Below are positions 46,475 through 64,000 of a stretch of 64,000 bases of DNA, piece by piece. Position numbers and translations under genes: made by a program. Within the stretch, counting starts at the first letter, position 1, and every line of letters begins with the position of its first letter. This DNA is from Eutreptiella sp. 'Long Island Sound 2002' (taxonomy: Eukaryota > Euglenozoa > Euglenophyceae > Eutreptiales > Eutreptiaceae), in assembly GCA_964036045.1 (NCBI GenBank), contig OZ038384.1:57509355-57573354 (forward strand). The letters run 5' to 3'. The notes under the pieces were generated by a model. The model was given only the letters and a program-made list of their open reading frames with translations. It was not told where the DNA came from and searched no databases.

Positions 46475-46487
46475 GGTACATGCATGA
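46475..46487 (+). repeat. Candidate target-site duplication, left copy
   Basis: GGTACATGCATGA is the last satellite sequence before the interlude and is followed at once by (TTG)n. The same 13 bp begins the satellite on the far side at 55,638-55,650. Without a duplication the right side should resume at position 14 of the unit, but it restarts at position 1. The bases just outside the 13 bp differ between the two sides. Confidence 0.6.
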
Positions 46488-46506
46488 TGTTGTTGTTGTT
46501 GTTGTG
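46488..46506 (+). repeat. (TTG)n microsatellite, possible (CAA)n 3' tail of a minus-strand insertion
   Basis: Six TTG/TGT repeats directly abut the satellite sequence. On the minus strand they read as a (CAA)n tail ending at the 13-bp duplication. Simple-repeat tails of this kind end many non-LTR retroelements, but the tract is short and could also be an ordinary microsatellite. Confidence 0.7.
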
Positions 46507-46637
46507 AGGGCACCCAGCACGTGCCGGCGGGAGAAATTGCCAGACACGCTCTCCCTGGGCAGGGCGCAAGGGAGCAGTCGGCCGGCGTCACGCTGGCCGG
46601 GCGTGTGCCGACGACGACCGAGGGGGGGGGGGGGGGG
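46507..46637. other. Unique spacer ending in a run of 16 G
   Basis: Low-copy sequence not seen elsewhere in the window. It is less G-rich than what follows and contains CACGTG at about 46,518. It ends in a run of 16 G at 46,622-46,637. No gene or RNA is recognised. On the minus strand this would be the last part before the (CAA)n tail. Confidence 0.6.
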
Positions 46638-46639
46638 TG

Positions 46640-46870
46640 CTGCCTTCTGTTTGGGGTGGGGAGGGGGCGCGTGTCGCTGTGAGAGGGACCACCTGTCCGT
46701 GTGACCCTGGTTCCCTCCCCCGCCGTCGGGGGAGGGCGTGCGCACCTGTGGGAAACGGAGGCGGGATGGGGGGCGGGATGGGGGGACCACCTGTCTGGGG
46801 ACCTGCGGGGCCCCGGTTCCCCTTCCTTCCAGCCGCCCCTCCCCCGCGACAGGGGAGGGGGCTACGTCCT
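46640..46870 (+). repeat. Diverged tandem pair beginning GACCACCTGTC
   Basis: Two imperfect copies of roughly 105 bp follow each other. Each starts GACCACCTGTC, carries a CCGGTTCCC- or CTGGTTCCC-like stretch, then a C-rich run, then a G-rich run ending GGGGAGGG (starts near 46,687 and 46,784). Within each copy the C-rich and G-rich runs can pair as a hairpin. They differ by indels and many substitutions, so this is an old duplication. No coding signal. Confidence 0.55.
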
Positions 46871-47002
46871 GTGCGGAGGTGGAACAATGGGGTGGAGGGG
46901 GCGGGGACTATGTATGGTCTATTCCCTGGTGCCCGTCCCTGTGTCCCGTGTGCGGGAGGCCGCGCGGCACGGCCGGCGGGGGGGTCCAGGCCTGGGTCGG
47001 GC
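46871..47002. other. Unique G+C-rich sequence, nothing recognised
   Basis: Low-copy stretch between the diverged pair and the 281-bp duplication. It contains a short A/T-containing patch (near 46,905-46,925) in an otherwise G-rich context. I see no gene, promoter element or RNA fold that I would defend. Confidence 0.5.
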
Positions 47003-47541
47003 GCGTGGGTAGCGGCGGGCGGCCGAGGCGGAGGCGGCGCCATGCGGGTGCGGGGCCCGTGGCGGTCGCGGGGCGGTGTGGGCGGACCGGCCGGAGGCCG
47101 TCGGTGGCCCTGAGAGCCCCACTCCATGGGGTCGGCGGGGTCGGCGGGCGCGCCGGGGGCGCGCGCGCCGCGTAGGCCAGGCCGTGGGGGGCGCGTGTGC
47201 AAGGGCGTCGGCGCGCCCGATGCGGGCCGCGGGACCAGCGGCAAGGGCGCAGCGTGGTCTGGGGGCCGAGGACGGGGCCGGGTGCGTGGGTAGCGGCGGG
47301 CGGCCGAGATGGAAGCGGCGCCATGCGGGTGTGGGGCCCGCGGCGGCCGCGGGGCGGCGCGGGCGGACCGGCCGGTGGTCGGCGGCGGCTTTGAGAGCCC
47401 CACTCCATGGGGTCGGCGGGCGCGCTGGGGGCACGCGCGCCGCGCAGGCCAGGCTGCGGGAGGCGCGCGTGCAAGGGCGCCGGCGCGCCCGATGAGGGCC
47501 CCTCTGTGGGCTGCGGGACCAGCAGTAAGGGCGCAGCGTGG
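47003..47541 (+). repeat. 281-bp tandem duplication next to the minisatellite
   Basis: Copy 1 is 47,003-47,283 and copy 2 is 47,284 to about 47,541. Both start GCGTGGGTAGCGGCGGGCGG and share GAGAGCCCCACTCCATGGGG, a GCGCGCGCGCCGCG-like CpG run, CGGCGCGCCCGATG and GGGACCAGC. They differ by scattered substitutions and small indels. Both contain the 11-mer GCGCAGCGTGG (47,247-47,257 and 47,531-47,541). In copy 2 this 11-mer runs straight into the minisatellite, so it is the likely seed of that array. Long open frames on both strands come from G+C richness and show no recognisable protein. Confidence 0.85.
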
Positions 47542-48497
47542 GGCTGCGCCGGGGCGCGGCATGGGGCCGCGCAGGGGCGCAGCAGCGTGGGGCCGCGCAG
47601 GGGCGCAGCGTGGGGCTGTGTAGGGGCTGCGCAGGGGCGCAGCGTGGTGCGGTGAAGGGGCGCAGTCGTGTGGGGCGGCGCAGGGGCGCTGTAGTGTGGG
47701 GCCGCGCAGGGGCGCGGCGCGGGGCTGCGTAGGGGCGCAGCGTGGGGTTGCGTAGGGGTTGCGCAGGGGCACAGCGTGGTGCGGAGCAGGGGCGCAGGCG
47801 TGTGGGGCGGTGCAGGGGCGCAACAGTGTGGGGCCGCGCAGGGGCGCAGCATGGGGCTGCGTAGGGGCTGCGCAGAAGTGCAGCGTGGTGCAGTGTGGGG
47901 CCGCGCATGGGCGCGGCGCGGGGCCGCGTAGGGGCGCGGCGTGGGGCTGCACAGGGGCGCAGCAGCGCTGGGCTGCGCAGGGGCGCAGCGTGTGGCTGCG
48001 CGGGGGCGCGGCGCGGGGCTGCGCAGGGGCGCAGCAGCGTGGGGCTGCGCAGGGGCGCAGCGTGGGGCTGCGCAAGGGCGCAGCAGCGTGGGGCTGCGCC
48101 GGGGCGCGGCATGGGGCCGTGAAGGGGCGCAGCAGCGTGGGGCTGCGCCGGGGCGCGGCATGGGGCCGTGAAGGGGCGCAGCAGCGTGGGGCTGCACAGG
48201 GGCGCAGCGTGGTGCGGCGCAGGTACGCGGCAGTGTGGAGCGGCGCAGGGGTGCAGCAGCGTGGGGCTGTGCAGGGGCGCAGCGCGGGGCTGCGCATGGG
48301 CGCGGCATGGGGGCGTGGAGGGGTGCAGCAGCGTGGGGCTGCGCGGGGCTGCGTAGGGGCGCACCGTGGGGCTGCGCAGGGGCGCCGCGTGGTGCGGCGC
48401 AGGGGCGCAGTAGCGGGGGGCGGCGCCGGGGCGAAGCAGTGTGGGGCTGCGCAGGGGCGCAGCGCGGGGCTGCGCAGGGGCGCAGCAGCGTGTCGCT
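47542..48497 (+). repeat. Hairpin-forming G+C-rich minisatellite, first block
   Basis: Tandem units of mostly 23 or 26 bp built on GGGG-CTGCGCA-GGGG-CGCAGC followed by GT or AGCGT. Inside each unit GCTGCGC and GCGCAGC are perfect 7-base complements separated by AGGG. Many units have C/T changes, and several have paired changes (GCCGCGC with GCGCGGC). Unit length is less regular here than in the second block. GGGG runs recur every 7-11 bp. The block ends where the 574-bp repeat begins. Confidence 0.92.
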
Positions 48498-49071
48498 GAC
48501 CGGGCAGAGGAGCGGCCGGGGCTGGCCAAAGTCGGCCGGGGACCCCGGGGCGCTCGAGGTGTCGGGGGGGCCGCGGTCAGCAGTGGGGCCCGCACCCCGC
48601 TCGGCAGGGACGAATCCCGCCGAGCATCATCCACGGGGGCGAATCCTGGTGGAGGCAGGGGGGAGCGCCACGCCGTCCCCTCGCGGCCGAACCGGACCGG
48701 GACGGGCCCCGCCGGATGGATACCGGGGGGGCGGGCGGGGCTGGGCACCGGGGCTCCGGGGCCCGGGTCCCTGGTGGTTGTGGGCCGGCGCGGGGGAGAC
48801 CGGGCGGGCCCCTTGGCTGCGGCTGGTGAGGGGGGGGCGTGGAAGGGCCGGGCGGGCTCGGGGGCGAACCCCGAGAGGCCCCCGGGGGCTGGGCGAGGGC
48901 TCCCGAGGGCGGCCGTTCCTTGAGGGGGGGGGGGGTTGCTCCCTGCCCGGGGGACGACGGGGGCCCCTCTTGGACGAGGGGGGGGGGAGGGCGTGTATCG
49001 CCCGGTGTAGGGCCATGTGGATTCATGGCCGCGCGGCATGGGACCATATCCCCAACCCTCTGCGCCGGAGT
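48498..49071 (+). repeat. 574-bp dispersed repeat, copy 1 (inside the minisatellite)
   Basis: This unique-looking segment interrupts the minisatellite, with minisatellite on both sides. It matches 54,887-55,459 nearly base for base: I count about ten differences including one single-base indel, or roughly 98% identity. Features include GACCGGGCAGAGGAGCGGCC at the start, GGGACGAATCCC and GGGGGCGAATCC motifs near 48,608 and 48,636, two runs of nine to ten G, and GATTCATGGCCGCGCGGCATG near the end. No protein or structural RNA is recognised. It could be a mobile sequence or part of a roughly 6.4-kb larger unit. Confidence 0.93.
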
Positions 49072-51490
49072 GCAGTGTGGGGCCGTGCATTAGCGCGGCG
49101 CGGGGCCGCGCAGGGGCGCGGCGTGGGGCTGCGCAGGGGCGCAGCAGCGCTGGTCTGCGCAGGGGCGCAGTTTGGGGCTGAGCGGGGGCGCGGCGCGGGG
49201 CTGCGCAGGGGCGCAGCAGCGCGGAGCTGCTCAGAGGCGCAGCGTGGGGCTGCGCAGGGGCGCAGCAGCGTGGGGCCGCGCCGGGGCGCGACACGGGGCC
49301 GTGAAGGGGCGCAGCAGCGTGGATCTGCGCAGGGGCGCAGCGTGGGGCTGAGTAGCGGCGCAGCGTGGGGCTGAGTAGGGGCGCAGCGTGGTGCGGCGCA
49401 GGGACGCAGCAGCGTGGGGCTGGGCAGGGGCGCAGCGCGGGGCCGCGCATGGGCGCGGCATGGGGGCGTAAAGGGCCGCAGCAGCGCGGGGCTGCGCAGG
49501 GGAGCAGCAGCGCGGGGCTGCGCAGGGGCGCAGCGCGGGGCTGGGCCGGGGCGCAGCGGGGGGCCGTGAAGGGGTGCGGCGCGGGGCTGCGCAATGGCGC
49601 AGCAGCGTGGGGCTGCGCAGGGGCGTAGCAGCGCGCGGCTGCGCCGGGGCGCAGCTTGGGGCCGCGAATGGGGCGCAGCAGGGGGTTGAGTAGGGGCGCA
49701 GCAGCGTGGGGCTGCGCAAGGGCGCAGCGTGGGGCTGCGTAGGGGCGCAGCAGCGTGGTGCGGCGCAGGGGCACAGCGTGGTGCGGCACAGGGGCGCAGC
49801 AGTGTGGGGCTGCGCAGGGGCGCAGCGTGGGGCTGCGCAGATGCGAAGCGCGGGGCTGCGCAGGGGCGCAGCAGCGTGGGGCCGCGCAGGGGCGCAGCAG
49901 CGTGGGGCTGGGCAGGGGCGCAGCGTGCGGCCGCGCAGGAGTGCAGCGTGGGGCCGCGTATGGGTGCGGCATGGGGCCGTGCAGGGGCGCGGCGCGGGGC
50001 CGCGCAAGGGCGCAGCAGCGTGAAGCTGCGCAGGGGCGTAGCAGCATGGGGCTGCGCCGGGGCGCGGCATGGGGCCGTGCAGGGGCGTCGCAGCGTGGGG
50101 CTGCGCAGGGGCGCAGCGTGGGGCTGCGTAGGGGCGCCGCGTGGGGCTGCGTAGGGGCGCAACGGTTTGGCGCAGCCCAGGGGCGTAGCAGTGCGGGGCT
50201 GCGCAGGGGAGCAGCGCGGGGTTGCGCAGGGGCGCAGCGTGGGGCTGCGCAGGGGCTAAGCGCGGGGTTGTGCAGGGGCGCAACAGCGTGGGGCCGCGCA
50301 GGGGCGCAGCGTGGGGCTGCGCAGGGGCGCAGCGTGGGGCTGCGCAGGGGCGCAACGTGGGCCCGCGCAGGAGTGCCGCGTGGGGCCGCGTATGGGCACG
50401 GCATGGGGCCGCGCAGGGGCGCGGCGCGGGGCTGCGTAGGGGCTGCGTAGGGGCGCAGCGTGGGGCTGAGTAGGGGCGCAGCGTGGGGCTGCGTAGGGGC
50501 GCAGCAGCGTGGGGCTGCGCAGGGGCGCAGCATGGGGCCGCGCAGGGGCGCGGCGCGGGGCCGTGCAGGGGCGCGGCGCGGGGCCGCGCAGGAGCGCAGC
50601 AGCGTGGGGCTGCGCCGGGGCGCAGCGCGGGGCTGCGCAGGGGCGCAGCGTGGGGCCGTGTATGGGCGCGGCATGAAGCCGTGCAGGGGCGCGACGCGGG
50701 GCTGCGCAGGGGCGCAGCAGCGTGGGGCTGCGCAGGGGCGCGGCATGGGGCCTTGCAGGGGCGCTACAGTGTGAGGCCGCGCAGGGGCGCAGCGCGGTGC
50801 GGCGCAGGGGCGCAGCAGTGTGGGGCTGCGCAGGGGCGCAGCGTGGGGCCGCGTATGGGTGCGGCATGGGGCCGTGCAGCAGCGCAGTGCGGGGCTGTGC
50901 CGGGGCGCAGCAGCGTGGGGCTGCGCAGGGGAGCAGCAGCGTGGGGCTGTGCAGGGGCGCAGCATCGTGGGGCTGCGCAGGGGCGCAGCAGCGTGGGGCT
51001 GTGCAGGGACGCAGTAGCGTGGGGCTGCACAGGGGCGCAGCAGCGAGGGCTGTGCGGGGGCGTAGCAGCGTGGGGCTATGCAGGGGCGTAGCAGCGTGGG
51101 CGCAGCAACCTGGGGCTGCGCAGGGGCGCAGCAGCGTGGGGCTGCGCTGGAGTGCAGCGTGGGGCTGCGCAGGTGCGCAGCAGCGTGGGGCTGTGCAGGG
51201 GCGAATCAGCGTGGGGCTGTGCAGGGGCGTAGCAGCGTGGGCGTAGCAAACCGGGGCTGCGCAGGGGCGCAGCAGCGTGGGGCTGCGCTGGAGTGCAGTG
51301 TTGGGCTGCGCAGTGGCGCAGCAGCGTGGGGCTGCGCAGGGGCGCAGCAACGTGGGGCTGCGCAGGGGCGCGGCAACGTGGGGCTGCGCAGGGGCGCAGC
51401 AACGTGGGGCTGCGCAGGGGCGCAGCAGCGTGGGGCTGCGCTGGGGTGCAGCGTGGGGCTGCGCAGGGGCGCAGCAGCGTGGGGCTGCGC

Positions 51491-52340
51491 AGGGGTGCAG
51501 CAACGTGGGGCTACGCAGGGGCGCAGCAGCGTGGGGCCGCGCAGGGGCGCAGCAGCGTGGGGCTGTGCAGGGGCGCAGCAACGTGGGGCTGCGCAGGGGC
51601 GCAGCAGCGTGGGGCTGCGCTGGAGTGCAGCGTGGGGCTGCGCAGGGGCGCAGCTGCGTGGTGCTGCGTAGGGGCGCAGCAGCGTGGGGCTGCGCAGGGG
51701 CGCAGCAGCGTGGGGCTGCGCAGGGGTGCAGCAGCGTGGGGCTGCGCAGAGCAGCTGTGTGGGGCGGCGCAGTGGTGGGGGCGCTGTGTAGGGGCGCAGC
51801 GGCATGGGGGTGCGCTGGGGCGCAGCATGTGGCTGTACAGGGGCGCAGTGCGGGGCTGCGCAGGGGCGCAGGGTGGGGCTGCGCAGGGGTGCAGCAACGT
51901 GGGGCTACGCAGGGGCGCAGCAGCGTGGGGCCGCGCAGGGGCGCAGCAGCGTGGGGCTGTGCAGGGGCGCAGCAACGTGGGGCTGCGCAGGGGCGCAGCA
52001 GCGTGGGGCTGCGCTGGAGTGCAGCGTGGGGCTGCGCAGGGGCGCAGCTGCGTGGTGCTGCGTAGGGGCGCAGCAGCGTGGGGCTGCGCAGGGGCGCAGC
52101 AGCGTGGGGCTGCGCAGGGGTGCAGCAGCGTGGGGCTGCGCAGAGCAGCTGTGTGGGGCGGCGCAGTGGTGGGGGCGCTGCGTAGGGGCGCAGCGGCATG
52201 GGGGTGCGCTGGGGCGCAGCATGTGGCTGTACAGGGGCGCAGTGCGGGGCTGCGCAGGGGCGCAGTGTGGGGCTGCGTAGGGGCGCAGCAGCGTGGGGCT
52301 GCGCAGGGGTGCAGCAGCGCGGGGCCGCGCAGAGCAGCCG
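51491..52340 (+). repeat. 394-bp higher-order repeat within the minisatellite
   Basis: A series beginning AGGGGTGCAGCAACGTGG occurs at 51,491 and again at 51,885, and the marker GCAGCTGTGTGGGGCGGCGC at 51,751 and 52,145. Both pairs are 394 bp apart. A third, partial copy of the marker (GCAGCCGTGTGG) is at 52,334. The two full copies look almost identical, so this part of the minisatellite was copied recently. Confidence 0.85.
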
Positions 52341-52733
52341 TGTGGGGCGGCGCATTGGTGGGGGGGGCACGTAGGGGCGCAGCGGCATGGGGGTGCGCTG
52401 GGGCGCAGCTTGTGGCTGTACAGGGGCACAGTGCGGGGCTGCGCAGGGTCGCAGCGTGGGGCTGCGCAGGGGCGCAGCAGCGTGGGGCTGCGCAGGGGCG
52501 CAGCGCGGAGCAGCCCAGGGGAGCAGCGTGGGGCTGCGCAGGGGCGCACCATGGGGCTGCGCAGGGGCGCAGCAGCGTGGGGCAGTGCAGGGGCGCAGCG
52601 AGCGGCGGCGCAGTGGTGGGAGGCTGCGCAGGGGCGCATCATGGGGCGGCGTATGGGCGCGGCGCGGAGCTGCGCAGGGGCGTAGCAGCGTGGGGCTGCG
52701 CTTGGGCGCAGTGTGGGGCTGCACAGGTGTTTT

Positions 52734-53500
52734 ATGTGGCTGCGTAGGGGCGCAGCAGCGTGGGGCCGCGCAGGGGCGCGGCAGCGGGGGGCTGTGCAGG
52801 TGCGCAGCAGCGTGGGGCTGCGCGGGGGCGCAGCAGTGTCGGCTGCGCGGGGGCGCAGTGGCGTGGGGCCGCGCATGGGCGCAGCAGCGAGGGCTGTGCT
52901 GGGGCGCAGCGTGGGGCTGCGCAGGGGCGCTGCAGCGTGGGGCTGCGCAAGGGCGCGGCGAGCGGCGGTGTAGTGGTGGGAGACTGCGCCGGGGCGTATC
53001 ATGGGGCCGCGTATGGGTGCGGCGCGGAGCTGCGCAGGGGCGCAGCAGCGTGGGGCTGCGCTTGGGCGCAGTGTGGGGCTGCACAGGGGCGCAGCAGCGT
53101 GGGGTTGCGCAAAGGTGTTGTATGTGGCTGCGTAGGGGCGCAGCAGCGTGGGGCCGCGCATGGGCGCGGCAGCGGGGGGCTGTGCAGGTGCGCAGCAGCG
53201 TGGGGCTGCGCAGGGGCGCCGCAGTGTGGGCTGCGCGGGGGCGCAGTGGCGTTGGGCTGTGCATGGGCGCAGCAATGAGGGCTGTGCAGGGGCGCAGCAG
53301 CGCGGGGCCGCGCGGGGGCGCTGCAGCGTGGGGCTGCGCAGGGGTGCAGCAGCGTTGGGATGCGAAAGGGGCGCAGCGTGGGGCCGCGCATGGGCGCAGC
53401 AGCGAGGGCTGTGCAGGGGCGCAGCAGCGCGGGGCCGCGCGGGGGCGCTGCAGCGTGGGGCTGCGCAGGGGTGCAGCAGCGTGGGGATGCGAAGGGGCGC
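52734..53500 (+). repeat. Further block duplications in the minisatellite (388 and 127 bp)
   Basis: ATGTGGCTGCGTAGGGGCGC occurs at 52,734 and 53,122 (388 bp apart). A block containing GAGGGCTGTGCAGGGG followed by CGCGGGGGCGCTGCAGCG occurs with GCTGTGCAGG at 53,281 and 53,408 (127 bp apart). Copies differ by a few bases. These show the same mode of growth by block copying as the 29-bp satellite, at a smaller scale. Confidence 0.75.
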
Positions 53501-53590
53501 AGCGTGGTGCTGTGCAGGGGCGCAGCAGCGCGGGGCCACGCAGGGGCGCAGCAGTGTGGGGCTGCGCAGGGGCGCAGCGGCGTGGGGCTG

Positions 53591-54260
53591 TCGTGTAGGG
53601 TAGAGGTAGGGGTGGCGTGAGGGCTCCAGAGCTGGGCCCCCGGTGGGAGGCCGGGGGCGGCATGGGGCGCGTGGGGGGCGTGCTGGTGAGTGGTGTGGGG
53701 GTGTGGCCTGCTACCTAGCCGTTCACTACGAGGATGTGGCGAGGAAGACGCAGGGGAACTGAGGCCGGAAAGCCTTGGGATGGGGGCTGGGGCGCTGGCG
53801 GCGGGTTATCCCCGGCGGGGATGGCCGGGGTGCCCTGGGGTCCCGTGGGGGCGGAGGCTCCCCACGTCGGCCGGGTGCGAAACCACGACCTGTGTTTCCG
53901 TCACCAAAGTTCTTAGGGTTCTACCCCAGGAACTTACCCGCCGCGGGCACTGTGGGCCGGGACGGCCAAGGGGGATGACAATGAAGAGGAAATGGGGGGC
54001 CAGGATGAGCCTGGCGGTCGGCACCATCCCTCGGCCTGGGGGAGGCCGTTGCCCGGGGCTATTCCCTTTCTCCCGTGGCCGTGGTGCTGTGGTGGGTGGC
54101 GGTGTCGCTACCCCCCAACGGGTGTCTGTGCCCGGTGCCGTGGGTACAGACCCCCGTTGGGGGCGGGTACGAAGCGCCCGGTCACCTCGTCCCCCCTGCA
54201 CAACAGCCCGCCAGGCGCCGGTTGGCCTTTAGCACCAGCTGTTGTGGGGGGGGGCGCTCA
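53591..54260. other. Unique sequence between minisatellite and hairpin cluster
   Basis: Low-copy stretch, more balanced in base composition than the rest of the interlude. It includes an A-containing patch at 53,890-53,990 (with CCAAAGTTCTTAGGG, and AATGAAGAGGAAATGG near 53,980). Open frames exist on both strands (for example 53,690-54,232 plus and 53,806-54,201 minus). I recognise no domain in them, they overlap one another, and their composition looks like translated G+C-rich DNA. No splice or promoter signal is convincing. Confidence 0.5.
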
Positions 54261-54303
54261 GGGCGATGCGGGGCCCCTCCGCTCTGCGGGGCCCGCACTG
54301 CCC
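54261..54303. repeat. Imperfect inverted repeat (16-17 bp arms)
   Basis: The left arm GGGCGATGCGGGGCCCC (54,261-54,277) pairs with GGGGCCCGCACTGCCC (54,288-54,303). There is one two-base mismatch and one bulge, and the loop is 10 nt. It is the first of three closely spaced stem-loops in 54.26-54.47 kb, and the only one without a B-box-like loop. It may be part of the same structured region as the two that follow. Confidence 0.6.
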
Positions 54304-54317
54304 GTATAATGCAACAA

Positions 54318-54361
54318 GGGGCGGCGCGGGCTCGAACCGCACACGCGGGCCGCGCCGCCCC
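54318..54361 (-). other. tRNA-like minihelix 1 (acceptor stem plus T-arm, B-box motif)
   Basis: Read on the minus strand: 5' GGGGCGG, a 13-nt linker, T-stem TGCGG, loop TTCGAGC, T-stem CCGCG, 3' CCGCCCC. The 7-bp acceptor-like stem is perfect and the T-stem has four Watson-Crick pairs plus one G-T. GGTTCGAGCC fits the RNA polymerase III B box of tRNA genes. D-arm and anticodon arm are absent, no good A box is seen, and no T run follows. An alternative fold is a 12-bp perfect hairpin (54,318-54,329 with 54,350-54,361). Compare minihelix 2. It could be a remnant of a tRNA-derived SINE head, a transposon inverted repeat, or chance in G+C-rich DNA. Confidence 0.4.
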
Positions 54362-54419
54362 ACCCGGGGTGGGGGACAGGGGGGGACAAGGGGGGGGGTC
54401 AGGGGGTCGCGGCAGGTGG

Positions 54420-54473
54420 CTGGAGGGTGGCAGGGGCTCGAACCGCGCACCGGCGGGCCCTACCACCCTCCAG
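54420..54473 (-). other. tRNA-like minihelix 2 (acceptor stem plus T-arm, B-box motif)
   Basis: Read on the minus strand, the core (54,469 down to 54,424) is AGGGTGG, a 15-nt linker, CGCGG, loop TTCGAGC, CCCTG, CCACCCT. The acceptor-like stem is perfect and is extended by four further pairs (CTGG with CCAG), giving an 11-bp perfect inverted repeat, 54,420-54,430 with 54,463-54,473. The T-stem has three Watson-Crick pairs, one G-T and one mismatch. GGTTCGAGCC is again present. Linker and loop align with minihelix 1 (shared GGCCCGC and CGGTTCGAGCCC), so the two are related. Against copy 1, stem pairs G-C and C-G have become A-T and T-A with pairing kept. Function is not known. Confidence 0.4.
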
Positions 54474-54886
54474 TCGGGAGGCGCAGCTGCAGGGGTTCTG
54501 AGGGCCCCACCCAGGGGCCTTCGCCCCCCCCCGTGCGGTTTTGGTGTGGGGGAGGGGAGGCAAAGGCCACTCGCGGCCATGACACATGGTGCATAGGGAG
54601 GGAGGTATGACGCATGCAACGCCTTGACGCGTGTGGCAGGGGAAGGGGTCCAAGGCTTGGACCCCCACCGCGTGCGGGGGGTCCTCTTGTTCGCAAGGCG
54701 GCCGTCCGTCGGCGGCTGCGGCAGCCCACCTCGGGGGCTTTGCTACCTGAGAGAGGAGAGGCGGGAGAGTGGGGGGGCGGTGGGGGCACGGCGTGCTCGT
54801 TGGGGGGGGGTGGGCTGGTGGGTGGGCGCGCGCGCGAGGGGGACGAGGGTGCGGTGAGCTCAGCCGCAGAGCGTCACCGTGCGGCC
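54474..54886. other. Unique sequence between the minihelices and the second 573-bp repeat
   Basis: Low-copy G+C-rich DNA. It contains a small inverted repeat GGCCCC-ACCCA-GGGGCC at 54,503-54,519, C- and G-runs, and a short more A/T-rich patch at 54,570-54,615 with CATGACACATGGTGCATAGG. A purine-rich run GAGAGAGGAGAGGCGGGAGAG lies near 54,748. No gene, tRNA or promoter is recognised. Confidence 0.5.
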
Positions 54887-55459
54887 GACCGGGCAGAGGA
54901 GCGGCCGGGGCTGGCCAAAGTCGGCCGGGGAGCCCGGGGCGCTCGAGGTGTCGGGGGGGCCGCGGTCAGCAGTGGGGCCCGCACCCCGCTCGGCAGGGAC
55001 GAATCCCGCCGAGCATCATCCACGGGGGCGAATCCTGGTGGAGGCGGGGGGGAGCGCCACGCCGTCCCCTCGCGGCCGAACCGGACCGGGACGGGCCCCG
55101 CCGGATGGATACCGGGGGGGCGGGCGGGGCTGGGCACCGGGGCTCCGGGGCCCGGGTCCCTGGTGGTTGTGGGCCGGCGCGGGGGAGACCGGGCGGGCCC
55201 CCGGGCTGCGGCCGGTGAGGGGGGGCGTGGAAGGGCCGGGCGGGCTCGGGGGCGAACCCCGAGAGGCCCCCGGGGGCTGGGCGAGGGCTCCCGAGGGCGG
55301 CCGTTCCTTGAGGGGGGGGGGGGTTGCTCCCTGCCCGGGGGACGACGGGGGCCCCTCTTGGACGAGGGGGGGGGGAGGGCGTGTATCGCCCGGTGTAGGG
55401 CCATGTCGATTCATGGCCGCGCGGCATGGGACTATATCCCCAACCCTCCGTGCCGGAGT
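54887..55459 (+). repeat. 573-bp dispersed repeat, copy 2
   Basis: Same orientation as copy 1 (48,498-49,071), offset 6,388-6,389 bp. Differences from copy 1 include AGCCC for ACCCC near the start, a C-rich change in the GGGCCCCCGGG stretch, one G fewer in a G run, and ATGTCGATT for ATGTGGATT near the end. Here it is flanked by unique sequence on both sides rather than minisatellite. The match stops abruptly at GCCGGAGT on the right and at GACCGGG on the left, so the borders of the repeat are well defined by comparing the two copies. Confidence 0.93.
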
Positions 55460-55637
55460 CCCTTCTTTTTGGGGGGGGCTGAGGGGGGGGGGGGGGGCTG
55501 GCGGTTGTTGTGTGCACCAACTAATGCGCGGTGGGGACTGCCGGTGGGAGCTCTGTCCGGCTTGGCCGATAAAACCCGGTGGCGTCCCCTGGGCTTCGAG
55601 GAAGAACCTCGGATTCGCCGGGGGGGACTCCGCTATG
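55460..55637. other. Right end of the interlude (5' end in minus orientation), with G runs
   Basis: Unique 178 bp between the 573-bp repeat and the satellite. It starts with a T run followed by eight G and then a run of about 15 G (55,483-55,497), and then has TTGTTGTGTGCACCAAC and GATAAAACCC. It ends CCGCTATG just before the satellite restarts. No gene is recognised. If the interlude is a minus-strand retro-insertion, this is its 5' end. Confidence 0.55.
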
Positions 55638-55650
55638 GGTACATGCATGA
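55638..55650 (+). repeat. Candidate target-site duplication, right copy
   Basis: GGTACATGCATGA opens the right satellite block and matches 46,475-46,487 exactly. It continues into CTAATGGCGGAG, so left and right halves join into one normal 29-bp unit when the interlude and one copy of the 13 bp are removed. Confidence 0.6.
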
Positions 55651-57000
55651 CTAATGGCGGAGCTTCGGTACATGCATGAGGTATGGCGGGGCCTTGGTAC
55701 ATGCATGAGGTATGGCGGGGCTTTGGTACATGCATGAGGGATGGCGGGGCTTTGGTACATGCATGAGGTATGGCCGGGCTTCGGTACATGCATGAGGTAT
55801 GGCGGGGCCTTGGTACATGCATGAGGTATGGCGGGGCTTCGGTACATGAATGAGCTATGGCGGGGCTTCGGTACATGCATGAGGTATGACGGGGCTTTGG
55901 TACATGCATGAGGTATGGCGGGGCTTTGGTACATGCATGAGGTATGGCGGGGCATCGGTACATGCATGAGGGAAGGCGCGGCTTTGGTACATGCATGAGG
56001 TATGGCGGGGCTTTGGTACATGCATGAGCTATGGCGGGGCTTCGGTACATGCATGAGGTATGACGGGCCTTTGGTACATGCATGAGGTATGGCGGGGCTT
56101 TGGTACATGCATGAGGTATGGCGGGGCTTCGGTACATGCATGAGGTATGGCGGGGCTTCGGTACATGGATGAGGTATGGCTGGGCTTCGGTACATGCATG
56201 AGGTATGGCGGGGCCTTGGTACATGAATGAGGTCTGGTGCGGCTTCGGTACATGCACGAGGTATGGCGGGGCTTTGGTACATGCATGAGGTATGGCGGGG
56301 CCTTGGTACGTGCATGAGGGATAGCGGGGCCTTGGTACATGCATGAGGTATGGCGGGGCCTTGGTACATGCATGAGGTATGGCGGGGCATTGGTACATGC
56401 ATGAGGTATGGCGGGGCTTTGGTACATGCATGAGGTAAGGCGGGGCTTTGGTACATGCATGAGGTATGGCGGGGTTTCGGTACATGCATGGGGGATGGCG
56501 GGGCTTTGGTACATGCATGAGGTATGGCGGGGCTTTGTCACATGCATGAGGTATGGCCGGGCTTCGGTACATGCATGAGGTATGGCGGGGCTTTGTCACA
56601 TGCATGAGGTATGGCGGGGCTTTGCCACATGCATGAGGTATGGCTGGGCTTTGGTACATGCATGAGGGATGGCGGGGCTTTGGTACATGCATGAGGTATG
56701 GCGGGGCTTTGGTACATGCATGAGGTATGGCGGGGCTTTGGTACATGCATGAGGTATGGCGGAGCGCTGGTACATGCATGAGGTAAGGCGGGGCTTTGGT
56801 ACATGCATGAGGTATGGCGGGGCATTCGCACATGCATGAGGTATGGCAGGGCTTTGGTACATGCATGAGGTATGGCGGGGCTTTGATAAATGCATGAGGT
56901 ATGGCGGGGCTTCGGTACATGCATGAGGTATGGCGGGGCTTCGGTACATGCATGGGGGATGGCGGGGCTTCGGTACATGCATGAGGTATGGCGGGGCCTT

Positions 57001-57700
57001 GGTACATGCATCAGTTATGGCGTAGCTTTGGTACATGCATGAGGGATGGCGGGGCTTTGGTACATGCATGAGGTATGGCCGGGCTTCGGTACATGCATGA
57101 GGTATGGCGGGGCTTTGGTACATGCATGACTTATGGCGGGGCTTCGGTACATGCATGAGGTATGGCGGGGCTTCGGTACATGCATGAGGTATGGCCGGGC
57201 TTTGGTACATGCATGAGGTATGGCGGGGCTTTGATACATGCATGACTTATGGCGGGGCTTCGGTACATGCATGAGGTATGGCGGGGCTTCGGTACATGCA
57301 TGGGGGATGGCGGGGCTTCGGTACATGCATGAGGTATGGCGGGGCCTTGGTACATGCATCAGTTATGGCGTAGCTTTGGTACATGCATGAGGGATGGCGG
57401 GGCTTTGGTACATGCATGAGGTATGGCCGGGCTTCGGTACATGCATGAGGTATGGCGGGGCTTTGGTACATGCATGAGGTATGGCGGGGCCTTGGTACAT
57501 GAATGAGGTCTGGCGGGGCTTCGGTACATGCATGACTTATGGCGGGGCTTCGGTACATGCATGAGGTATGGCGGGGCTTCGGTACATGCATGGGGGATGG
57601 CGGGGCTTTGGTACATGCATGAGGTATGGCGGGGCCTTGGTACATGCATCAGTTATGGCGTAGCTTTGGTACATGCATGAGGGATGGCGGGGCTTTGGTA
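57001..57700 (+). repeat. Local higher-order repeat, three copies (348 and 290 bp spacings)
   Basis: The rare unit TCAGTTATGGCGTAGC begins at 57,011, 57,359 and 57,649. Spacings are 348 bp (12 units) and 290 bp (10 units). Neighbouring units (a GCATGGGGGATGG unit before, GAGGTATGGCCGGG after) keep the same order in all three. Confidence 0.82.
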
Positions 57701-58399
57701 CATGCATGAGGTATGGCCGGGCTTCGGTACATGCATGAGGTATGGCGGGGCTTTGGTACATGCATGAGGTATGGCGGGGCCTTGGTACATGAATGGGGTC
57801 TGGCGGGGCTTCGGTACATGCATTAGGTATGGCGGGGCTTTGGTATATGCATGAGCTATGGCGGGGCTTCGGTACATGCATGAGGTATGGCAGTGCATTG
57901 GTACATGCATGAGGTATGGCGGGGCTTTGGTGCATGCATGAGGAATGGCGGAGCCTTGGTACATGAATGACGTGTGGCGGGCCTTCGGTACATGCATGAG
58001 GTATGGCGGGGCTTTGGTACATGCATGAGGTATGGCGGGGCTTTGGTACATGCATGAGGTATGGCGGTGCCTAGGTACATGCATGACTTATGGCGGGGCT
58101 TTGGTACATGCATGAGGTATGGCGGGGCCTTGGTACATGCATGAGGTATGGCGTGGCTTCGGTACATGCATGAGGAATGGCGGGGCTTTGGTACATGCAT
58201 GAGGTATGGCCGGGCTTCGGTACATCCATGAGGTATGGCGGGGCTTTGTCACATGCATGAGGTATGGCGGGGTATCGGTACATGCATGAGGTATGGCGGG
58301 GCTTTGGTACATGCATGAGGTATGGCGGGGCCTTGGTACATGAATGAGGTCTGGCGGGGCTTCGGTACATGCATTAGGTATGGCGGTGCTTTGGTACAT

Positions 58400-61300
58400 G
58401 CATGAGGTATGGCGGGGCTTTGGTACATGCATGAGGTATGGCGGGGCATTGGTACATGCATGAGGTAAGGCGGGGCTTTGGTACATGCATGAGGTATGGC
58501 GGGGCATTGGTACATGCATGAGGTATGGCAGGGCTTTGGTACATGCATGAGGTATGGCGGGGCTTTGAGACATGCATGAGGTATGGCGGGGCCTCGGTAC
58601 ATGCATGACTTACGGCGGGGCTTCGGTACATGCATGAGGTATGGCGGGGCTTCGGTACATGCATGGGGGATGGTGGGGCTTCGGTACATGCATGAGGTAT
58701 GGCCGGGCTTTGGTACATGCATGAGGTATGGCGGTGCTTTGTCACATGCATCAGGTATGGCGGGGCTTCGGTACATGCATGAGGTATGGCGGGGCTTTGG
58801 TACATGCATGAGGTATGGCGGGGCCTTGGTACATGCATGAGGTTTGGCGGGGCTTTGGTACATGCATGAGGTATGGCGGGGCTTTGGTACATGCATGAGG
58901 TATGGCGGGGCTTTGGTACATGCATGAGGTATGGCGGGGCATTGGTACATGCATGAGGTATGGCAGGGCTTTGGTACATGCATGAGGTATGGCGGGGCTT
59001 TGGTACATGCATGAGGTATGGCGGGGCTTCGGTACATGCATGAGGTATGGCGGGGCTTCGGTACATGCATGAGATATGGCGGGGCTTCGGTACATGCATG
59101 AGGTATGGCGGGGCTTTGGTACATGCATGAGGTATGGCGGGGCTTTGGTACATGCATGAGGGATGGCGAGGCCTTGGTACATGCATGAGGTATGGTGGGG
59201 CTTCGGTACATGCATGAGGTATGGCGGGGCTTTGGTACATGCATGAGGTATGGCGGTGCATTGGTACATGCATGAGGGATGGCGGGGCCTTGGTACATGT
59301 ATGAGGTATGGCGGGGATTTGGTTCATGCATGAGGTATGGCGGGGCTTCGGTACATGCATGAGGTATGGCGGGGCTTTGGTACATGCATGAGGGATGGCG
59401 GGGCCTTGGTACATGCATGAGGGATGGCGGGGCTTTGGTACATGCATGAGGTGTGGCGGGCCTTCGGTACATGCATGAGGTATGGCGGGGCTTTGGTACA
59501 TGCATGAGGTATGGCGGGGCTTTGGTACATGCATGAGCTATGGCGGGGCCTAGGTACATGCATGACTTATGGCGGAGCTTCGGTACATGCATGAGGTATG
59601 GCGGGGCCTTGGTACATGCATGAGGTATGGCGGGGCTTTGGTACATGCATGACGTCTGGCGTGGCCTTGGTACATGCATGAGGTCTGGCGGGGCTTCGGT
59701 ACATGCATGACGGAAGGCGGGGCATTGGTACATGCATGAGGTATGGCGGGGCTTTGGTACATGCATGAGGTATGGCGGGGCATCGGTACATGCATGAGGG
59801 ATGGCGGGGCTTTGGTACATGCATGAGGTATGGCGGCGCTTCGGTACATGCATGAGGGATGGCGGGGCTTCGGTACATGCATGAGGTATGGCGGGGCCTT
59901 GGTACATGCATGAGGTATGGCGGGGCTTCGGTACATGCATGAGGTATGGCGGGGCTTTGGTACATGCATGAGGTATGGCGGGGCTTCGGTACATGCATGA
60001 GGGATGGCGGGGCTTCGGTACATGCATGAGATATGGCGGGGCTTCGGTACATGCATGAGGTATGGCGGGGCTTTGGTACATGCATGAGGTATGGCGGGGC
60101 TTTGGTACATGCATGAGGGATGGCGAGGCCTTGGTACATGCATGAGGTATGGCGGTGCATTGGTACATGCATAAGGTATGGCGGGGCCTTGGTACATGTA
60201 TGAGGTATGGCGGGGTCTCGGTTCATGCATGAGGGATGGCGGGGCTTCGGTACATGCATGAGGTATGGCGGGGATTTGGTTCATGCATGAGGTATGGCGG
60301 GGCTTCGGTACATGCATGAGGTATGGCGGGGGTTTGGTACATGCATGGGGGATGGCGGGGCCTTGGTACATGCATGAGGGATGGCGGGGCTTTGGTACAT
60401 GCATGAGGTGTGGCGGGCCTTCGGTACATGCATGAGGTATGGCGGGGCTTTGGTACATGCATGAGGTATGGCGGGGCTTTGGTACATGCATGAGCTATGG
60501 CGGGGCCTAGGTACATGCATGACTTATGGCGGAGCTTCGGTACATGCATGAGGTATGGCGGGGCCTTGGTACATGCATGAGGTATGGCGGGGCTTTGGTA
60601 CATGCATGACGTCTGGCGTGGCCTTGGTACATGCATGAGGTCTGGCGGGGCTTCGGTACATGCATGAGGTATGGCGGGGCTTTGGTACATGCATGAGGTA
60701 TGGCGGGGCTTTGGTACATGCATGAGGTATGGCGGGGCATCGCTACATGCATGAGGTATGGCGGGGCTTTGGTACATGCATGAGGTATGGCGGCGCTTCG
60801 GTACATGCATGAGGGATGGCGGGGCTTCGGTACATGCATGAGGTATGGCGGGGCCTTGGTACATGCATGAGGTATGGCGGGGCTTCGGTACATGCATGAG
60901 GTATGGCGGGGCTTTGGTACATGCATGAGGTATGGCGGGGCTTCGGTACATGCATGAGGGATGGCGGGGCTTTGGTACATGCATGAGGTATGGCGGGGCC
61001 TTGGTACATGAATGAGGTGTGGCGAGGCCTTGGTACATGCATGAGGTATGGCGGTGCATTGGTACATGCATGAGGGATGGCGGGGCCTTGGTACATGCAT
61101 GAGGTATGGCGGGGCTTCGGTTCATGCATGATGTATGGCGGGGCTTCGGTACATGCATGAGGTATGGCGGGGCTTCGGTACATGCATGAGGTATGGCGGG
61201 GCATTGGTACATGCATGAGGGAAGGCGGGGCTTTGGTACATGCATGACGTGTGGCGGGCCTTCGGTACATGCATGAGGTATGGCGGGGCTTTGGTACATG

Positions 61301-61400
61301 CATGAGGTATGGCGGGGCTTTGGTACATGCACGAGCTATGGCGGGGCCTAGGTACATGCATGGCTTATGGCGGAGCTTTGGTACATGCATGACGTCTGGC
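58400..61400 (+). repeat. Higher-order repeat with 957-bp spacing
   Basis: The marker GGGGCCTAGG followed by GCATGACTTATGGCGGAGC occurs with TAGG at 59,551 and 60,508, 957 bp = 33 units apart. The following units (GACGTCTGGCGTGG, then GAGGTCTGG) also match. Related copies lie near 61,350 and 63,873. Borders are approximate. Confidence 0.8.
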
Positions 61401-64000
61401 GTGGCCTTGGTACATGCATGAGGTCTGGCGGGGCTTCGGTACATGCATGAGGTATGGCGGGGCTTTGGTACATGCATGAGGTATGGCGGGGCTTTGGTAC
61501 ATGCATGAGGTATGGCGGGGCATCGGTACATGCATGAGGGAAGGCGGGGCTTTGGTACATGCATGAGGTATGGCGGCGCTTCGGTACATGCATGAGGGAT
61601 GGCGGGGCTTCGGTACATGCATGAGGTATGGCGGGGCCTTGGTACATGCATGAGGTATGGCGGGGCTTCGGTACATGCATGAGGTATGGCGGGGCTTCGG
61701 TACATGCATGAGGGATGGCGGGGCTTTGGTACATGCATGAGGTATGGCGGGGCCTTGGTACATGAATGAGGTGTGGCGGGGCTTCGGTACATGCATGAGG
61801 TATGGCGGGGCTTCGGTACATGCATGAGGTATGGCGGGGCATTGGTACATGCATGAGGTATAGCGGGGCTTCGGTACATGCATGAGGTCTGGCGGGGCTT
61901 CGGTACATGCATGAGGTATGGCGGGGCCTTGGTACATGCATGAGGTATGGCGGGGCTTCGGTACATGCATGAGGGATGGCGGGGCATTGGTACATTCATG
62001 AGGGAAGGCGGGGCTTTGGTACATGCATGAGGTATGGCGGGGCTTTGGTACATGCATGAGGGAAGGCGGGGCTTTGGTACATGCATGAGGTATGGCGGGG
62101 CTTCGGTACATGCATGAGGTATGGCGGGGCTTCGGTACATGCATGAGGGAAGGCGGGGCCTTGGTACATGCATGAGGGAAGGCGGGGCATTGGTACATGC
62201 ATGAGGTATGGCGGGGCTTTGGTACATGCATGAGGTATGGCGGGGCTTTGGTACATGCATGAGGTATGGCGGGGCGTTGGTACATGCATGAGGTATCGCG
62301 GGGCTTTGGTACATGCATGACGGAAGGCGGGGCTTTGGTACATGCATGAGGTCTGGCGGGGCTTTGGTACATGCATGAGGTATGGCGGGGCTTCGGTACA
62401 TGCATGAGGTATGGTGGGGCTTCGGTACATGCATGAGGTATGGCGGGGCTTCGGTACATGCATGAGGTATGGCGGGGCTTCGGTACATGCATGAGGTATG
62501 GCTGGGCCTTGGTACATGCATGAGGGATGGCGGGGCTTTGGTACATGCATGAGGGATGGCAGGGCCTTGGTACATGCATGGGGGATGGCGGGGCTTTGGT
62601 ACATGCATGAGGTATGGCGGGGCTTTGGTACATGCATGAGGTATGGCGGGCCTTTGGTACATGCATGAGGTATGGCGGGGCTTTGGTACATGGATTAGGT
62701 ATGGCGGGGCTTCGGTACATGCATGAGGGATGGCGGGGCTTTGGTGCGTGCATGAGGTGTGGCGGGGCTTCAGTACATGCATGAGGTATGGCGGGGCTTC
62801 GGTACATGCATGAGGTGTGGCGGGGCTTCGGTACATGCATGAGGGATGGCGGGGCATTGGTACATGCATGAGGTATGGCGGGGCCTTGGTACATGCATGA
62901 GTTATGGCGGGGCTTTGGTTCATGCATGAGGGATGGCGGGGCCTTGGTACATGCATGAGGGATGGCGGGGCTTTGGTACATGCATGAGGTATGGCGGGGC
63001 TTCGGTACATGCGAGAGGTATGGCGGGGCCTTGGCACATGCATGACGGAAGGCGGGGCATTGGTACATGCATGAGGTATGGCGGGGCTTCGGAACATGCA
63101 TGACTTATGGCGGGGCTTCGGTACATGCATGAGGTATGGCGGGGCATTGGTACATGCATGAGGTATAGCGGGGCTTCGGTACATGCATGAGGTCTGGCGG
63201 GGCTTCGGTACATGCATGAGCTATGGCAGGGCTTCGTTACATGCATGAGGTATGGCGGGGCCTTGGTACGTGCATGACTTATGGCGGGGCTTCGGTACAT
63301 GCATGAGGTCTGGCGGGGCTTTGGTACATGCATGAGGTGTGGCGGGGCTTTGGTACATGCATGAGGGAAGGCGGGGCCTTGGTACATGCATGAGGGAAGG
63401 CGGGGCATTGATACATGCATGAGGGAAGGCGGGGCTTTGGTACATGCATGAGGTATGGCGGGGCTTTGATACATGCATGAGCTATGGCGGGGCTTTGGTA
63501 CATGCATGACCTATGGCGGGGCTTCGGTACATGCATGAGGTATGGCGGGGCTTCGGTACATGCATGAGGGAAGGCGCGGCCTTGGTACATGCATGAGGTA
63601 TGGCGGGGCCTTGGTACATGCATGAGGTATGGCGGGGCTTTGGTACATGCATGAGGTATGGCGGGGCTTCGGTACATGCATGAGGTATGGCGGGGTTTCG
63701 GTACATGCATGAGGTATGGCGGGGTATTGGTACATGCATGAGGGAAGGCGGGGCTTTGGTACATGCATGACGTGTGGCGGGCCTTCGGTACATGCATGAG
63801 GTATGGCGGGGCTTTGGTACATGCATGAGGTATGGCGGGGCTTTGGTACATGCACGAGCTATGGCGGGGCCTAGGTACATGCATGGCTTATGGCGGAGCT
63901 TTGGTACATGCATGACGTCTGGCGTGGCCTTGGTACATGCATGAGGTCTGGCGGGGCTTCGGTACATGCATGAGGTATGGCGGGGCTTTGGTACATGCAT
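61331..64000 (+). repeat. Higher-order repeat with 2,523-bp spacing, cut by the window end
   Basis: The marker ACGAGCTATGG, then GGCCTAGG and GCATGGCTTATGGCGGAGC, occurs at 61,331 and 63,854. The spacing is 2,523 bp = 87 units. The second copy continues to the end of the window with the same variant order (GACGTCTGGCGTGG, GAGGTCTGG), so its full length is not visible. Confidence 0.8.

Follow-up and report, generated by a model that had tools for sequence, protein, structure and literature searches.

VNTR composites have been described as hominoid-specific (PMC4432496). As presented in that source, SVA, LAVA, PVA and FVA are non-autonomous elements that enclose a GC-rich tandem core between an unrelated head and tail and have target-site duplications; a two-part core is reported there for young human SVAs. 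The Chlamydomonas elements SINEX-3_CR and L1-1_CR are presented as a stringent-type SINE/LINE pair with a shared 3' tail of about 80 nt, and a table row of the same source gives (CAA)n as one of the 3' repeats found in L1 and RTEX LINEs of green algae (PMC3747384). Target-specific non-LTR elements are described as inserting in microsatellites and telomeric repeats (PMC5035012). In the portions of the literature available for this study, no family of VNTR composites of this kind was recognised outside hominoids.

The window analysed here (the whole stretch of 64,000 nucleotides) contains an insert of 9,150 bp at positions 46488-55637, which is read as a minus-oriented copy of a non-LTR retroelement of the VNTR-composite type, dispersed and non-autonomous (probability roughly 0.77).

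Junctions of the insert with the satellite

The insert interrupts a satellite array of 29-bp units, which is found on both sides (1-46487 and 55638-64000). The original prediction had described an identical repeat on either side and a minus strand ending in (CAA)n against it. Both were found exactly so: the two copies of the 13-bp repeat are identical, the match extends no further, and the (CAA)n run, appearing as (TTG)n on the plus strand, adjoins the left copy (Table 1). The satellite units show no marked CpG decay, since C-to-T changes at the CpG amount to 1.9% compared to 0.8-1.3% at the remaining C positions, and G-to-A changes (1.2%) lie inside the 0.3-2.9% range of the other G positions.

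Because the array is periodic, a phase-matched overlap of 13 bp is weak evidence alone and was therefore tested. With one repeat deleted, the left flank (a CCTA-ending unit) and the right flank (CT at positions 14-15) form a linked variant pair, which is rare and present at nine further sites of the array. With the junction left out, a CT unit comes next after 9 of 11 units ending in CCTR, compared to 36 of 1876 other units (Fisher p 6e-14, a value overstated because some of the nine pairs are near-identical copies of one another). When the 116-bp flanks were searched separately, the best matches of both sides included one common site, located 17 units upstream. Such a common best site was obtained for none of the artificial same-phase junctions (0/200 and 0/300 in two runs), but for many truly contiguous ones (82/200 and 122/300, likewise in two runs). 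With flanks of 87 or 145 bp, the top matches of the two sides of the real junction differ; the two top sites of the 87-bp right flank are two of the nine linked-pair sites. The best-match test supports the insertion reading at 116 bp only and is supportive, not conclusive. Chance satellite phase as origin of the 13-bp repeat was rejected by the linked-unit test, with which the best-match test agreed at 116 bp alone. In our reading, the insertion was clean and duplicated 13 bp of the target site.

Internal architecture

The features of the insert are listed in Table 1 in plus-strand order, the sense of the element being the minus strand. The predicted minisatellite core is present and totals 5,475 bp, split into two blocks. 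Three further features had not been described before, namely a block of 585 bp occurring twice, another tandem repeat (unit about 281 bp), and a set of strong hairpins within 54100-54480. Folding of the 3' end was no better than that of shuffled sequences, and a special fold of this end was rejected accordingly.

Table 1. Features of the insert and its borders in the window.
Feature	Position	Strand	Support or remark
Left target-site duplication copy, GGTACATGCATGA	46475-46487	.	Exact repeat and flank-joining tests
(CAA)n tail, 18 bp, element 3' end	46488-46505	-	16 of 17 full-3'-motif relatives show T/N/Q homopeptides at the equivalent place
Conserved 3'-terminal region, about 115 nt, presumed reverse transcriptase recognition site	46506-46621	-	Matched by 18 of 39 relatives listed
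C-run (46622-46637, G on plus strand) and 3' region	46622-46980	-	74-88% in P0021, P0037, P0038, P0040
Two units of a second tandem repeat, each about 281 bp	about 46980-47530	-	By motif count, two units also in P0037 and P0040
26-bp GC-rich minisatellite, 3' block	47531-48486	-	Border with 281-bp units matched in P0040 and P0037
Block A, second copy, within minisatellite	about 48486-49071	-	Matches 54875-55459 at 97.6% across 586 bp
Main block of the 26-bp GC-rich minisatellite, about 180 copies	49072-53590	-	Part of the 5,475-bp core
Single-copy region U with hairpin run	53591-54875	-	Part recurs in P0034
Hairpin, 12-bp perfect stem, pol III B-box-like loop GGTTCGAGCCC	54318-54361	-	Fold 54310-54372, z -1.51, not clearly above shuffles
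Hairpin, 16-bp stem of different sequence, loop likewise GGTTCGAGCCC	54420-54473	-	z -2.79 for 54412-54490
Block A', adjoining 5' head	about 54875-55459	-	Pairs with inner block A copy
5' head, 178 bp, element start (CAT)AGCGGAGTCC	55460-55637	-	5' end recurs in six relatives
Right target-site duplication copy, GGTACATGCATGA	55638-55650	.	Exact repeat

The length, the flank duplication and the internal 585-bp direct repeats could be expected of a DNA transposon, a Helitron or an LTR element as well, an origin that is nevertheless extremely improbable. The first and last 600 bp share short or weak matches only, none of which pairs the termini, so that no long terminal direct repeats of an LTR retrotransposon were found; the terminal 30 nt agree in inverted orientation at 9 of 30 positions, which does not place the insert among terminal-inverted-repeat DNA transposons; and the 585-bp repeats are internal. 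Moreover, 13 bp is an unusual duplication size for a DNA transposon.

In this region, 49 stop-to-stop ORFs reach 120 aa or more; 13 of them were scanned against Pfam (eight at E 0.1, five at E 0.01), including the five longest kinds on the minus strand and eight located outside the main minisatellite. None of the 13 contained a Pfam domain, and hence neither a reverse transcriptase nor an endonuclease domain was detected among them, in agreement with the claim that the insert has no visible protein genes; membership among autonomous LINEs was not supported on this sample. The minus strand stays open for as many as 1,428 codons; this is ascribed to composition, since each of its three frames has an ORF of 662 codons or more. 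A coding gene was rejected on the basis of the 13 ORFs scanned. No RNA gene or tRNA was found (two miRNA rows of the Rfam scan were far below gathering scores), and the Rfam scan revealed no SRP/Alu-type RNA family, although a short Alu-like piece could escape such a scan. Two B-box-like sites (54328-54338 and 54434-54444) are located more than 1 kb from the 5' end of the element, the A-box pattern used for pol III found no match in the insert, a CCCTCT tandem is absent in sense orientation, and AATAAA is absent from the insert. SINEs are short and have their internal pol III promoter, made up of A and B boxes, close to the 5' end; a SINE was rejected in view of the 9,150 bp, the distant B-box-like sites and the missing A-box match.

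No CT-hexamer or Alu-like region as in SVA, LAVA, PVA and FVA was found in the insert, which ends in (CAA)n, unlike SVA with its poly(A) tail. It also differs from these families by combining 26-bp and 281-bp repeats, by its 9.15 kb and by its landing in a satellite. The hominoid families are characterised further by mobilisation in trans by L1. The likeness to the hominoid composites, as far as these are described in the source consulted, lies in the GC-rich tandem core, the border of which is common to P0037 and P0040, in the unrelated ends, the target-site duplication and the apparently non-autonomous state. The designation as an SVA-like composite was thus appropriate for architecture and mode, but not for membership. 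Like SINEX-3_CR and L1-1_CR as portrayed in the source, the insert has a conserved 3' end (about 115 nt), which a partner LINE presumably recognises; it is far longer, however, and has a tandem-repeat core. The (CAA)n tail repeat likens it to the green-algal L1 and RTEX LINEs by tabulated description, and those LINEs are autonomous.

Relatives of the insert

At least 39 translated ORFs match the insert, which therefore belongs to a repeat family. The relatives are known as translated ORFs alone, all identities to them refer to the amino acid level, and the counts are lower bounds, two of the three protein searches having scored 7,983 and 7,973 candidates, part of the total. The full 3'-end motif is present in 17 of the 39 relatives listed. 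In 16 of the 17 it is followed by a homopeptide of T, N or Q, 5-10 residues long, which is taken as (CAA)n because the three frames of that repeat would yield such stretches. P0031 is without a CAA run. The length of (CAA)n varies among relatives, and the flanks after the homopeptide differ, P0021 stopping at the homopeptide. In 5 of the 17, (TACCA)n follows the 3' end; elsewhere (TA)n, a minisatellite or non-repeat flanks were found. The 5' end was found in six of the 39 listed (P0001, P0007, P0012, P0027, P0029 and P0038), each time preceded by differing sequence. At the level of translations, the two ends were thus encountered at other places in one orientation and next to (CAA)n, as had been expected. 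Four relatives are head-to-tail pairs, in which the 3' end leads through (CAA)n and a short stretch of (TACCA)n into the next 5' end.

Internal parts are shared as well. In P0037 and P0040 the minisatellite is likewise followed by 281-bp units, then by the 3' region and the tail, with some 35-55 residues of minisatellite visible in each. None of the sequences covers another copy from end to end. The border between minisatellite and 281-bp units is conserved at 88% over 67 aa in P0040 and 73% over 88 aa in P0037, whereas over the entire 47531-48486 block both align at 36%, barely over the approximately 30% of other A/P-rich matches. By motif count, two 281-bp units are present in P0037 and P0040 and three in P0038, P0039 and P0041. 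The insert is not merely a single decayed copy, since relatives share the 281-bp units and the minisatellite border.

Constant ends beside differing flanks, a variable (CAA)n length and the linked unit pair restored at the empty site all speak against spread at the DNA level (segmental duplication, circular DNA or tandem-repeat recombination), with the 13-bp repeat as satellite phase or microhomology. This explanation is considered very unlikely, even though the satellite around the insert and the tandem repeats beside several relatives are recombination-prone places and P0034, in which the tail is broken and fused to region U, looks like a recombinant.

Had the insert arisen from an autonomous LINE by internal rearrangement (a 'half-LINE'), it would have inserted in the same way; head, block A, region U and tail would then be the long 5' and 3' UTRs, and tandem repeats would stand in place of the lost ORFs. 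Defined ends, a (CAA)n tail and apparent 5' truncation (P0010, P0015 and P0016, judged by eye in translation) suit a LINE equally. The tail is the best conserved part: the 3'-terminal approximately 115 nt are matched by 18 of the 39 relatives at a median amino-acid identity of 94% in the translated frame. In P0038 the tail (85%) is not better conserved than the region preceding it (88%). In P0020, block A passes into protein-like sequence, as might be expected of a LINE. We regard this origin as unlikely, since the 281-bp units and the minisatellite border are common to relatives, and no reverse transcriptase or endonuclease domain was found in the 13 insert ORFs or in the 12 of 39 relatives scanned (seven and five).

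P0024, alone of the first seven relatives scanned, gave three Pfam rows, all under the cut-offs. To the eye, one flank of P0030 resembles the terminal part of a non-LTR reverse transcriptase, but it had no match in Pfam or among solved structures and is given no weight here; a viral-contig match to this flank covers 27 residues inside a phage-like ORF and was rejected as a relative. Exact short patterns of the insert had no match in viral or genome contigs, and blastn of 53590-55637 found nothing in phages or plasmids.

Proposed route of insertion

The insert most likely entered the satellite by copying through RNA. Two hallmarks of target-primed reverse transcription were observed, i.e. a target-site duplication (13 bp at this copy) and a 3' end that stays constant among independent copies and carries a simple-repeat tail (16 of 17 relatives, in translations). 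Taken together with the recurring ends and the 13 ORFs devoid of Pfam domains, the duplication and the (CAA)n run support the original prediction of a non-autonomous, minisatellite-centred retroelement. The reverse transcriptase of a putative host LINE would bind the conserved last approximately 115 nt and the (CAA)n of the element RNA, while an endonuclease would nick the plus strand of the satellite after GGTACATGCATGA. The freed 3' end might then prime cDNA synthesis starting within the CAA repeats, and a second-strand nick 13 bp away would give rise to the 13-bp duplication. Tandem repeats may be favoured landing sites, because several relatives run into (TACCA)n, (TA)n or other repeats after the tail. 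Insertion in tandem repeats is shared with the target-specific non-LTR elements as they are described, but unlike in these, the flanks of the present family vary ((TACCA)n, (TA)n, minisatellite, non-repeat, 29-bp satellite), so that this is a preference at most. Against the retroelement reading count the lack of any partner LINE among the results, the length of 9.15 kb, which is considerable for a non-autonomous retroposon, and, as given above, the deviating relatives P0031, P0034 and P0038, the low identity across the 47531-48486 block, the unremarkable fold of the 3' end and the flank test at 87 and 145 bp.

Significance

In a wider sense, a LINE of the stringent-tail type favouring tandem-repeat DNA might move a 9-kb non-hominoid VNTR composite with its own head, two repeat tiers and a (CAA)n tail, and would so build head-to-tail arrays in (TACCA)n and seed satellite blocks; for this proposal we see even odds. 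If true, an unrelated composite of like plan with another tail would mean that a tandem core in non-autonomous retroelements arose more than once, and the role of the core in mobilisation would become testable. Landing in satellites and microsatellites would then give retroelements a way to build as well as break tandem arrays.

Structure of the insertion

A 29-bp satellite, GGTACATGCATGAGGTATGGCGGGGCTTT, fills both sides of the window (repeat finder, 90% matches) and is interrupted by 9,150 bp, the parts of which have a G+C content of 67–82%. An exact 13-bp repeat is found on both sides of this insert and is adjoined by (CAA)n at the insert's minus-strand end; the insertion, its 13-bp duplication and its (CAA)n tail, as described in the original prediction, were thus seen again. 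No marked C-to-T or G-to-A excess was detected at the CpG of the satellite unit.

Read on the minus strand, the insert consists of a minisatellite core between unrelated ends, an arrangement that had been proposed on first reading and is confirmed by the repeat anatomy (see table). A 585-bp block is present twice, at 54875–55459 beside the head (the 5' end) and at 48486–49071 within the minisatellite. This placement shows that the core underwent rearrangement, perhaps of recent date or through template switching.

Features of the satellite array and the insert (window coordinates)
Feature	Position	Strand
29-bp satellite, left part	1–46487	
13-bp repeat, left copy	46475–46487	
Insert	46488–55637	-
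Head, 178 bp	55637–55460	-
Block A'	55459–54876	-
Region U, run of hairpins	54875–53591	-
First hairpin of region U	54318–54361	
Second hairpin of region U	54420–54473	
26-bp GC-rich minisatellite, first block	53590–49072	-
Block A, second copy (97.6% identity)	49071–48487	-
Minisatellite, further block	48486–47531	-
Two ~281-bp units	47530–46981	-
3' region with C-run	46980–46622	-
Conserved terminal ~115 nt, then (CAA)n	46621–46506, then 46505–46488	-
29-bp satellite, right part	55638–64000	
13-bp repeat, right copy	55638–55650	

The two hairpins listed for region U have different, unrelated stems and an identical loop, GGTTCGAGCCC, which fits the pol III B box consensus; an A box was not found with the pattern used. 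Compared to shuffled sequences, folding was quantified for 54105–54170 (z -3.75), 54412–54490 (z -2.79) and 54310–54372 (z -1.51). On the minus strand, the first hairpin resembles by eye a tRNA acceptor and T arm lacking D and anticodon arms.

Validity of the proposed target-site duplication

The 13-bp repeat alone is little proof of a duplication, because any two breakpoints in a periodic array yield an apparent overlap. One copy was therefore deleted by script and the rejoined array was checked for naturalness. The left flank terminates in a rare unit variant (...CCTA), while the right flank resumes with a rare variant carrying CT at positions 14–15. In the array excluding the junction, a CT unit follows a unit ending in CCTR in 9 of 11 cases, compared to 36 of 1876 other units; some of the nine pairs are near-identical copies and thus not independent events. 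The rejoined site forms a tenth such pair. This linked two-unit variant, located at nine places besides the junction, is a trace of higher-order structure in the array.

In a second test, the left and right 116-bp flanks were each matched alone to the remaining array, and the best matches of both include one common place, 17 units upstream. Such a common place was obtained for none of the artificial same-phase junctions (0/200 and 0/300) and for 82/200 and 122/300 contiguous junctions. The real junction failed this test at flank lengths of 87 and 145 bp. Most likely, the array was opened at one point and 13 bp were duplicated, without loss of units.

Relatives and their conservation

Relatives were sought with minus-strand translations in a very large protein collection; all statements on them rest on these translations, with DNA codons inferred from protein. 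Gene callers seem to have predicted spurious A/P-rich ORFs on this non-coding DNA, which have stayed in public protein collections. Head and block A' gave at least 20 matches, the 3' end 15, and the 281-bp units with the 3' region at least five; with one match common to the searches, at least 39 proteins were obtained, each from a single contig with ENA as source. Seventeen of the 39 have the complete 3'-end motif (17 residues, with a tolerance of four substitutions), and in 16 of these it is directly followed by 5–10 T, N or Q residues, as expected if (CAA)n is read in its three frames (ACA, AAC or CAA). P0031 has the motif without this run, and in P0034 the motif is broken and joined to region U. 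The 5' end was detected in 6/39 relatives; the sequence before it is (TA)n, (TACCA)n or unrelated. At the level of translations, the ends thus appear to recur beside (CAA)n as predicted.

P0037 and P0040 share the window's order of minisatellite, two 281-bp units, 3' region and tail. At the border between minisatellite and 281-bp units, P0040 is 88% identical over 67 residues and P0037 73% over 88 residues, with ~35–55 residues of minisatellite visible in each; over the whole 47531–48486 block, both align at 36%, close to the ~30% background level of other A/P-rich matches. The 281-bp units are 87% (P0037) and 73% (P0040) identical. P0038, P0039 and P0041 contain three such units by motif count, and no minisatellite was recognised in the part seen. 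Matching contig sizes suggest that P0009 (block A) and P0027 (tail) share one contig (both 1,121,243), as do P0006 (block A) and P0041 (281-bp units; both 2,937,857).

The terminal ~115 nt were matched in 18/39 relatives (median identity 94%). The region just upstream is 74–88% identical in four clear cases (P0021, P0037, P0038, P0040) and of lower identity or unaligned in others; frame shifts at the C-run account for part of this. The tail exceeds the upstream region in three of the four (89 vs 81, 95 vs 88, 100 vs 74), but not in P0038 (85 vs 88); being amino-acid identities of non-coding DNA in one frame, these figures rank conservation and do not measure it.

Probable insertion mechanism and classification

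The 13-bp duplication, the constant 3' end, the simple-repeat tail of variable length and the varied flanks match the traces that non-LTR elements leave by target-primed reverse transcription, the probable mechanism here. The + strand end ...GGTACATGCATGA would prime cDNA synthesis within the CAA repeats. In line with the predicted lack of visible protein genes, no reverse transcriptase or endonuclease domain was detected in the 13 insert ORFs scanned, and the machinery should therefore come from elsewhere. No domain match above cut-off was obtained for 12 relatives either; from these and the window copy, we infer that the element is non-autonomous. The conserved terminal stretch points to a partner LINE of the 'stringent' type, described in PMC3747384 as reading the 3' end. 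In a table row of the same review, (CAA)n is given as one of the 3' repeats found in green-algal L1 and RTEX LINEs, which is a precedent for the tail and not a host identification.

SVA, LAVA, PVA and FVA are described in PMC4432496 as VNTR composites, i.e. non-autonomous elements with unrelated head and tail on either side of GC-rich tandem repeats. The element follows the same plan of unrelated ends flanking such repeats, whereas tests for the CT-hexamer/Alu-like head and the poly(A) tail of SVA found neither. The suggested likeness to SVA is borne out in plan and mode but does not extend to membership: the element works like SVA but is no SVA. SINE, LTR element and DNA transposon were ruled out by tests of their defining features.

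Flanks of the relatives

Past the T/N/Q run, (TACCA)n, as read from YHTIP repeats, is located in P0012, P0025, P0027, P0029 and P0038, (TA)n in P0033, minisatellite in P0026 and an ORF resembling reverse transcriptase by eye in P0030. P0021 stops at the run, and most remaining relatives continue with other sequence. P0024 and P0032 have a common P-rich stretch ending in SKVGGG, and some landing sites may therefore be copies of one repeat. In P0020, block A gives way at residues 146–181 to protein-like sequence with a coiled-coil look; it has no Pfam match and may belong to a neighbouring gene or to a relative that is autonomous.

In P0012, P0027, P0029 and P0038, the 3' end of one copy is followed by (CAA)n, (TACCA)n and the 5' end of the next copy, head to tail; other orientations would hardly be detected by this single-frame, single-strand search. 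With (TACCA)n between successive copies, the family looks to be accumulating within a single microsatellite.
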